NCBI GenBank assembly: GCA_030533085.1
Contig: JAUNJZ010000026.1
Span: 1-37,244, forward strand
Length of the DNA: 37,244 nucleotides
Reading direction: 5' to 3'
Origin: Synergistaceae bacterium
GTDB taxonomy: Bacteria > Synergistota > Synergistia > Synergistales > Synergistaceae
Made by a program: the position numbers and the translations under genes
The notes under the pieces: generated by a model
Database searches by the model: none
What the model was told of the DNA's origin: nothing
What the model saw: the letters and a program-made list of their open reading frames with translations, nothing else
Shown: positions 2,008 through 6,818 of the stretch, piece by piece
Layout of the letters: each line of letters opens with the position of its first letter
Numbering within the stretch: position 1 is the stretch's first letter

Positions 2008-3654
2008 TTATCCTGCTTTCGTGAAGTCTACAGTCGCGACCCAGAGCATGTCGCCGTTTTTGACAAGCTCCTGATTGAGATTGTCGTCTATATCGCCGTC
2101 TATCTCGAGAGCGCCGAGGGCGAGGCCGCTTCCGTCCTTGCGTCCGAGCGCGAAGCTTGCGATGTTGACCTTTGCCGCGCCGAGTATGCTGCCTATTTTG
2201 CCGATAACGCCGGGGCGGTCGTGGTTCTGGAATATCAGCAGCTTGCCGCCGGGGACGAAGTCCACCCAGTAATCGTTGACGCGGACTATGCGCTGGCGTC
2301 CCTCTTCCGTTATGGTGGCGAGCAGAGAGACGGGCCCTTTGGCCGTCTCCAGCTCCACTTCGATGGTATTTTTATAGGTGCGCGGCTCTCCGTAGCTTTC
2401 GTCGATGGAGATGTGGCGGTCTTTCGCGAGCAGCGGCGCTATCATGTAGGTCACTGATGTGCCGATGCTTACCTCAAGCATTCCTTTCAGAACTGCGATG
2501 GTGTATGGGCGCAGTTTGTTCGCGACGCATTTCTCTTCATCATCAAAAAGCGCGCCGCGCAGCGTCACGTGGCATTTGTGGGCCGCGGAGCCGCGCACCT
2601 GCGCAAGTCTGGCGGCCAGCAGGCCGAGTTTGCGGGCGAGGTTGAGGTACATTCTCTGGTCTCCGTTAAGCGACTGTTCCATGAATGGCAGGTTGACGGC
2701 GTGGTTGTAAGGCTCGCCGCGCAGCACCATCAGCATATTCCAGGCCGCTATGCGCGCCACCTCAGACTGCGCTTCGATCGTGTTAGCCCCTATGTGAGGG
2801 GTTATGACTATCCTGTCCGCTATATCTTCGGCAAGGAATGGGTGGTCGGCGGAAAGCGGCTCTTCGCTGAATACGTCGGTCGCGAAGCCGTAAAGGCGCT
2901 CTTCGCGGACGGCCTCCGCCACGGCAGCCTCGTCAACAATGCCGCCGCGCGCGCAGTTCACCAGATAGGCTCCGTGTTTGAAGGCGCGGAGCATCGCCGC
3001 GTCTATCATGTTTTTCGTCTCTTCGGTGAGCGGCGTGTGGATAGTCACCATATCGGCCAGCGATACGGCCCCTTCCAGGTCGCTCATCAGCTCTACGTTA
3101 AGGGAATCGGCGCGTTTTTGCGGAATGTACGGGTCATAGGCTATGACCTCCATTCCGAAGGCGCGCGCGCGCTTCGCCACCTCGCCGCCTATGCGTCCGA
3201 GGCCGATTACGAGCAGCGTTTTTCCGCTGAGCTGGCGGCCTGTGAATTTGCCGCGATCCCATTTGCCCTCGTGGAGCGATGTACAGGCCTGCGGGACCTT
3301 TCTCACCACAGCGAGCATGTTGGCCATTGTCAGCTCCGTGGCGGCGAGAGTGTTGCCGCTGGGGGCGTTGATGACAATAATGCCGCGGCGGCTGGCGACC
3401 GGCAGATCTATGTTGTCAACGCCGACGCCGGCGCGTCCTATGACCTTGAGCTTTTTCCCGGCCTCTATCTTCGCCGCGTCCATTGTCGTGCCGCTGCGTG
3501 TGAGGATGGCGTCGACGCCGGCGAGCTTTTCTATAAGCTCTTCCTCTGTAAGCTCAAGCGCAACTTCAAGCTCGACGTCCTGCGCGGCTCTGAATATGTC
3601 AAGCCCCGCCTCGCCAACCTTTTCAGTAACTAATACTTTCCATTTTTCGCTCAT
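2008..3654 (-). CDS. serA: D-3-phosphoglycerate dehydrogenase
   Basis: SerA oxidises 3-phosphoglycerate to 3-phosphohydroxypyruvate with NAD, the first step of serine synthesis. The order is a split catalytic domain, an NAD-binding Rossmann domain (GLGRIGGEVAKRARAFG), an intervening allosteric domain, and a C-terminal ACT domain containing NHDRPGVIGKIGSILG. Catalytic residues are seen in NCARGGIVDE (Arg), FSEEP (Glu) and TPHIGANT (His). This is the long ACT-bearing form, about 548 residues, so serine feedback is plausible. I chose the ATG giving MSEKWKVLV, which matches the usual family start and has a GGAT element upstream; an ATG at 3678 would add eight residues but has a poor ribosome-binding site. 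The gene lies between the aminotransferase and the histidine phosphatase, downstream of a serine-rich leader peptide. Confidence 0.95.
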   Translation of the reverse strand: MSEKWKVLVTEKVGEAGLDIFRAAQDVELEVALELTEEELIEKLAGVDAILTRSGTTMDAAKIEAGKKLKVIGRAGVGVDNIDLPVASRRGIIVINAPSGNTLAATELTMANMLAVVRKVPQACTSLHEGKWDRGKFTGRQLSGKTLLVIGLGRIGGEVAKRARAFGMEVIAYDPYIPQKRADSLNVELMSDLEGAVSLADMVTIHTPLTEETKNMIDAAMLRAFKHGAYLVNCARGGIVDEAAVAEAVREERLYGFATDVFSEEPLSADHPFLAEDIADRIVITPHIGANTIEAQSEVARIAAWNMLMVLRGEPYNHAVNLPFMEQSLNGDQRMYLNLARKLGLLAARLAQVRGSAAHKCHVTLRGALFDDEEKCVANKLRPYTIAVLKGMLEVSIGTSVTYMIAPLLAKDRHISIDESYGEPRTYKNTIEVELETAKGPVSLLATITEEGRQRIVRVNDYWVDFVPGGKLLIFQNHDRPGVIGKIGSILGAAKVNIASFALGRKDGSGLALGALEIDGDIDDNLNQELVKNGDMLWVATVDFTKAG

Positions 3655-3688
3655 TTCAATCATCCAATCGTCATTCATTCTTTTTATT

Positions 3689-4863: not shown

Positions 4864-4892
4864 TAAAAAAGACCGAAAGTATCCTTTCAGTC
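4864..4892 (-). terminator. Attenuator terminator in the serine operon leader
   Basis: On the minus strand GACTGAAAG (4892-4884) pairs with CTTTCGGTC (4879-4871) through a GATA loop (nine pairs, one G-U), followed directly by six Ts (4870-4865). It lies about 40 bases before the aminotransferase start and downstream of the operon promoter, so it must be conditional. Its 5' arm overlaps the 3' arm of a competing helix at 4890-4892. Confidence 0.9.
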
Positions 4893-4958
4893 TCAAAACG
4901 TATCCCCTCTTTTTTACTTTTATCGCCGAGGCAGCATTTCTGCTATTCGCTTTGAGAC
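4890..4958 (-). promoter_or_regulatory. Predicted antiterminator helix of the serine operon leader
   Basis: On the minus strand GTCTCAAAGCG (4958-4948), which covers codons 29-32 of the leader peptide, is complementary over 11 bases with one G-U pair to CGTTTTGAGAC (4900-4890). The second arm shares three bases (up to five if the terminator stem is extended) with the terminator's 5' arm, so the two structures compete. A ribosome at the leader stop codon (4943-4945) would cover the first arm and allow termination. A ribosome stalled at the earlier Ser codons would leave it free. A small hairpin (arms 4978-4984 and 4962-4968) lies inside the leader ORF and may help separate the states. Confidence 0.75.
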
Positions 4959-5041
4959 AAGCGCGGGAAAGAAAAACTCCCGCGAGAAGAGAGGCGCGAA
5001 ATAGACGACGATGATAAAAACGAACATATATAACAGAACAT
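4943..5041 (-). CDS. Serine-rich leader peptide of the serine biosynthesis operon
   Basis: A 32-codon ORF on the minus strand starts with ATG at 5041 and ends with TAG at 4945-4943. Twelve of 32 residues are serine (positions 7, 10-13, 15, 18, 19, 22, 24, 29, 31), including four consecutive Ser codons, TCA TCG TCG TCT, at 10-13. An AGAGGGGA Shine-Dalgarno-like element lies about nine bases upstream, and the ORF begins about 32 bases after the predicted transcription start. Its stop codon is immediately after one arm of an antiterminator helix. Length, amino-acid bias and position match classical leader peptides such as those of the his, thr and leu operons. The downstream genes make serine, so I infer it senses charged tRNA-Ser. 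No experimental support is available to me. Confidence 0.82.
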   Translation of the reverse strand: MFCYICSFLSSSSISRLSSRGSFSFPRLSQSE

Positions 5042-5079
5042 CCCGACCGATCCCCTCTCAAACTTTTTATCAGTTTACT

Positions 5080-5108
5080 TTTATACGCCAAACTCCCTGT
5101 AATGTCAA
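5080..5108 (-). promoter_or_regulatory. Sigma-70-type promoter of the serine operon
   Basis: On the minus strand TTGACA (5108-5103), a 17-base spacer, then TATAAA (5085-5080). Transcription would start near 5073, giving a leader of about 248 nt before the aminotransferase start. It is a near-consensus promoter, consistent with regulation mainly by attenuation after initiation. Confidence 0.8.
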
Positions 5109-5159: not shown

Positions 5160-5244
5160 CCGCTGTAAATTATTTTTTCTCTTCGCTCACAGGCTGTCAT
5201 TTATAAGATATAATTTAGGACGCAATGTGAATGGGGTAAGGGAG
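5160..5244 (+). repeat. 85-bp direct repeat, left copy
   Basis: This segment recurs at 6734-6818 with a single difference (G at 5236, A at 6810). It contains a promoter and ends in a TAAGGGAG ribosome-binding site. The copies lie 1574 bp apart and bracket the AlbA_2 gene; similarity stops at TAAGGGAG on the 3' side. Upstream of 5160 only a faint similarity may persist. Confidence 0.95.
5186..5214 (+). promoter_or_regulatory. Promoter in the left repeat copy, driving the AlbA_2 gene
   Basis: CTCACA (5186-5191), a 17-base spacer and a perfect TATAAT (5209-5214), about 37 bases before the ATG. The same promoter occurs in the right repeat copy in front of mltG, so both genes should be expressed from identical signals. 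Confidence 0.65.
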
Positions 5245-5250
5245 ATTCTC

Positions 5251-6669
5251 ATGATAGAAAAATTGATAGCCGAAGCGACCGAGTGTGATTACAAGGCTGC
5301 ACTGGAAGTTAAAAAGCCAAAGAGCTGGCTGAAAAGTGTTAGCGCCTTTGCCAATGGGATTGGCGGTACACTGTTTTTTGGCGTTGCCGATGACCGTGAA
5401 ATTGTGGGATTAACTGATGTGCAGTCGGATGCAGAAACCATCAGCCGCCTTATTCGAGAGCGCATCACGCCGTTGCCGCATTTTGTACTTACACCTGTAA
5501 AGGAGAACGGAAAAGAACTTCTGATTTTAAAGATTGCTGCCGGACGCGCCACACCCTATTACTATAAAGCTGACGGTATTATGAAAGCCTATATTCGCAG
5601 TGGGAATGATAGTGTGCCAGCCCCGGGACATGTGCTGAATGAATTGATTTTAAAGGGTACAAATCAGTCCTTTGACTCACTTGTAACAAACGCCCCAAAA
5701 GATGATTACAGCTTTACGCTATTGGAAGCTGTCTATCTGGAACGCACTGGGCATCACTTTGAAGCTACAGATTATATTTCATTTGGACTGATAGATAAAA
5801 ACGGCTTCCTGACCAATGCCGGCAGACTGCTGACAGACCAGCACAGCGTGTTCAATTGCCGACTGTTCTGCACACGTTGGAATGGTTTAGAAAAAGGCTC
5901 CATTTTCGATGACGCGCTGGACAATAAGGAATATGCCGGAGGCTTGATTTATTTGCTGCAAAGCGGCTATGATTTTATCCGCAACAATTCCAAAACTCGC
6001 TTTGCCAAAGAAGCGCGTTTCCGTGTAGACAAGCCGGACTACAGTGACCGGGCAGTAACTGAGGCTTTGGTAAATGCCCTTATACATCGTGATTTCATCA
6101 TCATGGGAAGGGAAATCCACATCGATATGTACGATGACCGTTTGGAAATACAATCGCCTGGCGGAATGTTCGAGGGCAAGCCGATTCAGGAATGCGACAT
6201 CAACTCCATTTGTTCTGTACGACGCAATCCCGTCATTGCCGATTTGTTCCACCGTATGAAGTACATGGAGCGCAGGGGCAGCGGTTTGAAAAAGATTTTA
6301 AGTGAAACCGCAAAGCTGCCAGGATATACTGAACAGCTAAAGCCTGAGTTTTACTCCACTTCTTTCGATTTTCGTGTGATTTTGAAGAATGTAAATTATA
6401 ACTTGTTGGTTTCCCCACAAGTAATCCTACAAGATACCCCACAAGATAACAAACAAGTCAGTTTCGAGGAAAAGATACTTATATTCTGCAAAGAAGCGCG
6501 CAGCCGCAGGGAAATCGCGCAATATTTCGGTTATAAGGATGTACGGCACTTTTCCATCAGCTATTTGCGCCCCCTCATGGAGCAAAAAAGATTGCGGTTG
6601 ACTATTCCAGATAAGCCCAACAGCCGCAACCAGAAATATATCGTATCTACAGCCAAGAAAGAGGGATAA
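5251..6669 (+). CDS. AlbA_2 (Schlafen-like) domain ATP-binding protein
   Basis: A 472-residue protein of the family usually annotated as ATP-binding or Schlafen AlbA_2 domain protein. Residues about 10-130 form the AlbA_2 nucleic-acid-binding domain (KSVSAFANGIGGTLFFGVADD). Around residues 270-350 is a GHKL-type ATPase region (TEALVNALIHRDF, SPGGMF, ERRGSGLKKI). The C-terminus resembles a winged helix. I chose ATG 5251 because of the GGGAG ribosome-binding site in the preceding repeat; an in-frame extension to 5011 lacks support. Family members are often DNA-binding regulators or accessory genes in variable islands; the function is unknown. The gene is visibly more AT-rich than its neighbours and lies between 85-bp direct repeats, which suggests acquisition by transfer. 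Confidence 0.88.
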   Translation: MIEKLIAEATECDYKAALEVKKPKSWLKSVSAFANGIGGTLFFGVADDREIVGLTDVQSDAETISRLIRERITPLPHFVLTPVKENGKELLILKIAAGRATPYYYKADGIMKAYIRSGNDSVPAPGHVLNELILKGTNQSFDSLVTNAPKDDYSFTLLEAVYLERTGHHFEATDYISFGLIDKNGFLTNAGRLLTDQHSVFNCRLFCTRWNGLEKGSIFDDALDNKEYAGGLIYLLQSGYDFIRNNSKTRFAKEARFRVDKPDYSDRAVTEALVNALIHRDFIIMGREIHIDMYDDRLEIQSPGGMFEGKPIQECDINSICSVRRNPVIADLFHRMKYMERRGSGLKKILSETAKLPGYTEQLKPEFYSTSFDFRVILKNVNYNLLVSPQVILQDTPQDNKQVSFEEKILIFCKEARSRREIAQYFGYKDVRHFSISYLRPLMEQKRLRLTIPDKPNSRNQKYIVSTAKKEG

Positions 6670-6733: not shown

Positions 6734-6818
6734 CCGCTGTAAATTATTTTTTCTCTTCGCTCACAGGCTGTCATTTATAAGATATAATTTAGGACGCAAT
6801 GTGAATGGGATAAGGGAG
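6734..6818 (+). repeat. 85-bp direct repeat, right copy
   Basis: Matches 5160-5244 with one substitution. This copy supplies the promoter and ribosome-binding site for mltG and is probably the ancestral one, since mltG is the conserved neighbour. Between the AlbA_2 stop codon and this repeat (6670-6733) I see no terminator. Confidence 0.95.
6760..6788 (+). promoter_or_regulatory. Promoter in the right repeat copy, driving mltG
   Basis: CTCACA (6760-6765), 17-base spacer, TATAAT (6783-6788); identical to the left copy. Confidence 0.65.

Follow-up and report, generated by a model that had tools for sequence, protein, structure and literature searches.

A putative serine-specific leader-peptide attenuator ahead of serine synthesis genes in the Synergistales

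How is serine synthesis controlled in the Synergistales, and does a short serine-rich reading frame that precedes the serine operon of a Synergistaceae bacterium form part of that control? The locus lies in a stretch of 37,244 nucleotides (contig JAUNJZ010000026.1, hereafter the window) from a genome of 2.63 Mb, where the whole control region occupies positions 5108-4865 of the minus strand, the strand of all elements described here. It opens with a near-consensus promoter, whose -35 element TTGACA (5103..5108) and -10 element TATAAA (5080..5085) are separated by a 17-nt spacer and are of a type that recurs in nearly all relatives. The promoter stands ahead of a leader peptide ORF of 32 codons, MFCYICSFLSSSSISRLSSRGSFSFPRLSQSE (4943..5041; ATG at 5041, TAG at 4943), in which 12 codons specify serine, including a run of four, and two specify cysteine; a candidate Shine-Dalgarno sequence, GAGAGGGG (5052..5059), weak by itself, lies approximately 10 nt ahead of the ATG. 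The final codons of the ORF contain the 5' arm of a predicted antiterminator (GTCTCAAAGCG, 4948..4958; segment 2), which can form 11 bp, one G.U among them, with a 3' arm further downstream (CGTTTTGAGAC, 4890..4900; segment 3). The end of segment 3 overlaps the 5' arm of an intrinsic terminator (4865..4892), recognised from the sequence, from pair counting and by separate terminator detection, in which the arms GACTGAAAG (4892-4884) and CTTTCGGTC (4879-4871) are separated by GATA and followed by six T residues (4870-4865), and the stem of which reaches 11 bp if G4894 and A4893 pair with T4870 and T4869. A further 39 nt separate the terminator from the TTG start codon of the first gene (4825). 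The promoter, the 32-codon ORF with 12 serines, the 11-base complementarity and the terminator on which the original prediction was built are all present, exact to the base.

That first gene encodes a class-V aminotransferase (PF00266; 3689..4825), presumed to be phosphoserine aminotransferase, and has a ribosome-binding site AGGAGG at 4839-4834. It is followed by serA, encoding a phosphoglycerate dehydrogenase with an ACT domain (2008..3678; TIGR01327, 568.5 bits, above the cut-off), and by a gene for a histidine-phosphatase-superfamily protein (PF00300; 1362..2006), presumably a PspA-like phosphoserine phosphatase, which scores 134 bits against the PspA model NF045917, under the cut-off of 350, and is kept as the third gene in relatives. 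The order aminotransferase, SerA, phosphatase is preserved in relatives wherever the contig extends far enough. The operon was originally read as one for serine synthesis, and this stands, on the TIGR01327 match for SerA and on family membership and conserved neighbourhood for the presumed functions of genes one and three. A gene for an ADP-ribosylglycohydrolase (PF03747; 113-1261, minus strand) comes after the operon in the same direction; a homologue directly follows serA in genome G026 (L104), and the association may consequently predate the window's genome.

Taken singly, the features of the leader are less exceptional than they may appear. ORFs of 15-60 amino acids with at least 12 serines occur in 34 of 3706 segments of 185 nt along the contig (five of the 34 being the leader itself), and 2 of 2000 segment pairs drawn at random contain an 11-bp helix of the antiterminator kind; the serine count of the window's leader has p = 0.003 against composition-preserving shuffles. 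Given that neither a serine-rich ORF nor such a helix alone is far beyond chance, the case rests on comparison.

For this comparison, aminotransferase orthologs were identified in 70 of the 188 genomes of the phylum, and the upstream regions of all of them yielded 71 loci. A serine-rich leader ORF (at least 5 serines) lies behind a promoter at 57 of these loci, in 25 genera, and the ORFs average 9.4 serines in 41 amino acids (e.g. MNCKTISKSVSSSSLSSGLSSCGWSSPRRRSQSE, MRRSAYLVYTGISSSSLCSGVSSSCGGSGCLCRSRNVYPMNREDH, MAQAFLFSGIGSGSSSSSGWSGRAGLPVPAGETPQP and MTKSKKRLLGIGCSGAMGSSSSSWEGDSSSIVLFLRAPETDY). Almost all relatives have a promoter of the TTGACA/TATAA type ahead of the leader ORF. A Shine-Dalgarno sequence is recognisable in only about half of the ORFs, given the starts chosen. 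A terminator is present at 52 of the 57 leader-bearing loci, at a median position of 40 nt past the ORF stop and 43.5 nt ahead of the gene. A scan of genome contigs with the aminotransferase as query gave matches in close relatives only.

The 14 loci at which a serine-rich ORF was not detected include four from a distant family (f11) with a different upstream gene, several that are clipped by contig ends (two of which, L060 and L066, visibly bear the end of the leader), and one weak case (L069). At three further loci, from the small genomes of genera g4 and g5, the serine operon is present and no serine-rich ORF was found. Within g5 (L086 of G023 and L085 of G004) the operon has been kept and the serine-rich ORF lost; in G023 the antiterminator/terminator region is still recognisable (39.7 bits with the antiterminator model) and contains no serine run, and apparently represents a decaying attenuator.

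Genomes without an aminotransferase ortholog were searched through their SerA orthologs instead. In families f7 and f9 and in G026, all of which lack the aminotransferase, a serine/cysteine-rich leader with a terminator lies immediately 5' of serA, as illustrated by the peptides MFISTSLFRSSCGSSSASRGCEWCIFRFFSPGPGTLS (L111) and MMMNRNAVCGSCGGSCSRSWSSSQDREGCCFWPRDQV (L112) and by the G026 ORF, which ends in SRSISSIPSGLSSCGCISSCRRSRSV. These serA-first leaders add 9 genomes and 3 genera, and bring the total to 66 genomes, which represent 28 genera and nine Synergistales families. G026 has retained promoter, leader, antiterminator and terminator although the aminotransferase is gone, and its serA-first site is matched at E 1e-10 by a covariance model for the antiterminator region that was trained exclusively on aminotransferase-first loci. 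Strong matches to this model number essentially one per genome and lie at the serine operon, the remaining matches being at noise level. Pattern search detected the switch only once in the window's genome, where the extra model matches are likewise noise-level only; no such leader was seen in the SerA-first genomes G001, G006, G014 and G024. Judged by this distribution, the leader accompanies serine synthesis rather than one particular gene. Conservation in relatives, which the original prediction had named as a check, was borne out: the serine-rich ORF, the promoter and mostly the terminator recur in nine families, including the serA-first lineages.

Whether the two stems have evolved as competing structures was assessed in an alignment of the window's clade (14 sequences from six genera), in which 14 antiterminator pairs were considered. 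Standard pairs fill 94.9% of the antiterminator cells in these sequences, a figure that falls to at most 55% when the partner is slid by 1-3 columns, and two of the pairs show changes on both sides (C-G/U-A and G-C/A-U). In the terminator 98.7% of cells are paired, again with two pairs showing double changes. As both stems pair and both show double changes, the arm that they share co-varies with both of its partners. The number of double-change pairs alone does not stand out from letter shuffles, 275 and 326 of which, out of 500, attain the same number; the fraction paired and the covariation score do stand out (0-1 of 500). Over 26 genera, the arms of a locus fit each other better than they fit foreign arms (KS p 0.003), a preference that is clearest in genera g8, g12, g16, g19, g20, g23 and g26. 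This swap, together with pair counting, replaced a test of RNAduplex energies against shuffles, which is too permissive because the arms are GC-rich.

In families f3 and f8, and in some of f10, own antiterminator arms fit no better than foreign ones, and the conserved feature by the serine run is rather a hairpin of the CUUCCGG...CCGGAAG type. The covarying competing stems that had been anticipated are found in the window's clade, with compensatory changes in both, and in these other leaders the antiterminator is indistinguishable from chance. The peptide past the serine run (SSGWSGRAGLPLPAG) is strikingly conserved at seven f3/f10 loci (L052, L055, L062, L063, L065, L068 and L070), more so than elsewhere, and the cause may lie either in the RNA, constrained by the CUUCCGG...CCGGAAG hairpin, or in a role for the peptide as it emerges from the ribosome.

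Folding at equilibrium, with a ribosome modelled in place, offers mild support only, and is weak at single loci. When the ribosome is modelled on the serine run, pairing at the terminator base drops by more than 0.3 at 14 of 53 loci and never rises; in the window the effect requires the ribosome to sit on the final serine of the run (0.35 against 0.95). Part of this asymmetry is inherent in the test, given that less competing RNA remains when the ribosome sits at the stop codon, and mean terminator pairing is a misleading measure because the upper stem is common to both states.

The codons of the leaders provide a further line of evidence. UCN codons make up 464 of 535 leader serine codons (86.7%), a larger share than the 77.7% of the aminotransferase genes (Fisher p 5e-6), and this bias runs in the direction expected, because ribosomes of serine-starved Bacillus subtilis slow at UCN and cysteine codons and not at AGY codons (PMC3862929). 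Serine columns contain 152 synonymous versus 77 non-synonymous codon differences, a comparison biased by the columns having been picked for serine, and the other columns contain 232 versus 708; beyond the serine columns, the peptide sequence changes freely. A codon-position test over all peptides gave little signal, partly on account of misaligned or wrongly chosen ORFs (e.g. L048).

We consider it very probable that this switch is a ribosome-mediated transcription attenuator specific for serine, which would answer to the level of seryl-tRNA(Ser). Its anatomy, the conservation of leader with operon across the order and, within the window's clade, the compensatory changes in both stems can be read directly from the genomes, and it shares with the class its clustered cognate codons, its terminator ahead of the gene and its cognate biosynthetic operon; an antiterminator that excludes the terminator is present in the window's clade, and was not recovered at f3, f8 and some f10 loci. 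The classical reading offered by the original prediction consequently gains support from recurrence in nine families and from compensatory changes in the window's clade, while we infer that the ORF is translated and that ribosomes stall on it, as well as the direction in which the switch responds. Under this model, a ribosome would translate the serine-rich leader in the wake of RNA polymerase. With ample seryl-tRNA(Ser) it would reach the stop codon and cover segment 2, whereupon segment 3 could fold into the terminator and transcription would end ahead of the operon. With scarce seryl-tRNA, above all of the isoacceptors that read UCN, the ribosome would stall within the serine run, segments 2 and 3 would pair, the terminator base beside the U tract could not close, and the aminotransferase-serA-phosphatase operon would be transcribed.

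Could the signal be wider than serine? Cysteine and glycine derive from serine, and on that ground the cysteine codons beside the serine run may also stall ribosomes, so that the leader would report the joint supply of serine and cysteine, perhaps with glycine. We regard this as possible and as considerably less likely than not. Cysteine occurs in 50 of the 57 leaders, where it accounts for 5.2% of residues versus 1.6% in the aminotransferase, several cysteines are present in f7/f9 leaders (CGSS, CCFW), and the higher ribosome density of serine-starved B. subtilis extends to cysteine codons (PMC3862929). However, cysteine reaches just 1.15 times the share predicted from composition (5.2% versus 4.5%), as against 2.2 times for serine (23.3% versus 10.5%), and both cysteine codons of the window's leader precede the serine run. 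Cysteine enrichment was accordingly set aside as independent evidence, given that it vanishes once nucleotide composition is considered, and a cysteine share so near to the composition prediction leaves cysteine co-sensing as only a possibility. A broader proposal, in which the leader senses the whole serine family through UCN-serine and cysteine codons and has controlled serine synthesis since the ancestor of the Synergistales, having survived loss of the aminotransferase and reshuffling of the first gene, is likewise put forward tentatively.

Two further explanations dispense with a sensing ribosome. The serine-rich ORF could be incidental to a pyrimidine-rich, structured RNA that senses its signal independently of translation, as a T-box, a riboswitch or a protein-bound attenuator. 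T-boxes do occur elsewhere in Synergistaceae genomes, and the serine run is pyrimidine-rich and, in several families, complementary to a downstream GGAGAGG/CCGGAAG stretch. Nevertheless, Rfam returned no match at gathering score in the window, and a scan of 16 loci from different families gave none at E<=0.5 aside from tRNAs and isolated sub-threshold matches; serine columns vary at third positions while serine stays (the 152 versus 77 differences above, with the same bias in column choice); and serine-rich ORFs survive where the nucleotide sequence can no longer be aligned between families. Such a sensor therefore seems very unlikely. A pyrimidine-rich spacer might alternatively read as serine-rich by chance ahead of a constitutive terminator, and at 33 of 65 single loci the serine count does lie within the range of dinucleotide shuffles (p>0.05). 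Yet 21 of the 65, from approximately 13 genera, exceed the shuffles at p<=0.01 where 0.65 would be expected, and against chance there stand the promoter-ORF-terminator order in 28 genera, the compensatory pairs in both stems, and the retention of the leader ahead of serA in genomes without the aminotransferase, which together make this explanation extremely improbable.

Several features of the neighbouring DNA and of these genomes merit a brief mention. An 85-nt direct repeat (99% identical; 5160-5244 and 6734-6818) brackets an ORF on the plus strand (5260-6669) of low GC content (44%), with SLFN_AlbA_2, RecG-C-like ATPase and Fic-like C-terminal domains. This looks like a gene that was inserted between the promoter of the serine operon and the gene beyond it, apparently duplicating the intergenic segment in the process; relatives contained no close full-length ortholog (best match 53% over part of its length). 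Several T-boxes per genome coexist with the leader-peptide attenuator in Synergistaceae, and the window's genome has five T-box matches, zero of them inside the window.

Leader-peptide attenuation is textbook knowledge for His, Trp, Leu, Thr, Phe and Ilv, and many Synergistales bacteria live on amino acids. What would be new here is the specificity for serine and the phylum Synergistota, the mechanism itself being already known. A serine attenuator in nine families of one order widens both the list of amino acids and the phylogenetic range of this mechanism, and provides a natural multi-genus data set with which to test selective-charging theory (UCN versus AGY serine codons). Its description would also enable Rfam and genome annotation to detect such leaders, the short ORFs of which are easily overlooked. 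The statement that no serine-specific attenuator is established agrees with the open-access literature searched, in which none is described, though a subscription journal may hold one; as far as that literature shows, this is the first classical-type attenuator described for serine.

Among known systems, one survey (PMC3766115) gave His, Leu, Thr and Trp as the only amino-acid attenuators listed in Rfam at the time, with Ilv and Phe attenuators known as well. Surveys of attenuators in Firmicutes, Actinobacteria and further groups, as far as they were searched, make no mention of a serine leader. CodY, known in Synergistetes (PMC9318921), was considered as an alternative and set aside, the text of that paper containing neither serA nor serine. 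No Rfam match to a known riboswitch or to the His, Trp, Thr or Leu leaders was obtained, and these were ruled out, as were the T-box (RF00230), which matched neither the window nor the serine operon at any scanned locus, and the serC element (RF00517), whose model matched neither the window nor those loci. With the his, trp, thr and leu attenuators (RF00514, RF00513, RF00506 and RF00512) the Synergistales leader shares a promoter, a short ORF rich in cognate codons, competing stems and a terminator ahead of the operon, and it differs from them in its serine codons, its serine operon, its phylum and the lack of any sequence match. Similar logic and similar comparative evidence characterise the hisS/hisZ and his operon leaders of Firmicutes (PMC2965389, PMC9413887), the Trp, Leu and Cys leaders of Actinobacteria (PMC1262725) and the Rhodobacterales Cys leader uORFC-8-2 ahead of cysS (PMC8632094), none of which is specific for serine, and no serine operon comes up in these reports as far as they were searched. 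The T-box likewise reads tRNA charging ahead of amino-acid genes. The serC element of Alphaproteobacteria also lies upstream of a serC-serA operon; however, it consists of two stems proposed to hide the ribosome-binding site, and unlike the Synergistales leader it has been described with neither leader peptide nor terminator (PMC1273637). Finally, the SinR serine-codon sensor of B. subtilis similarly exploits slower translation at UCN (and cysteine) codons upon serine starvation, but does so as an effect within a coding sequence, without a leader peptide or an RNA switch (PMC3862929).
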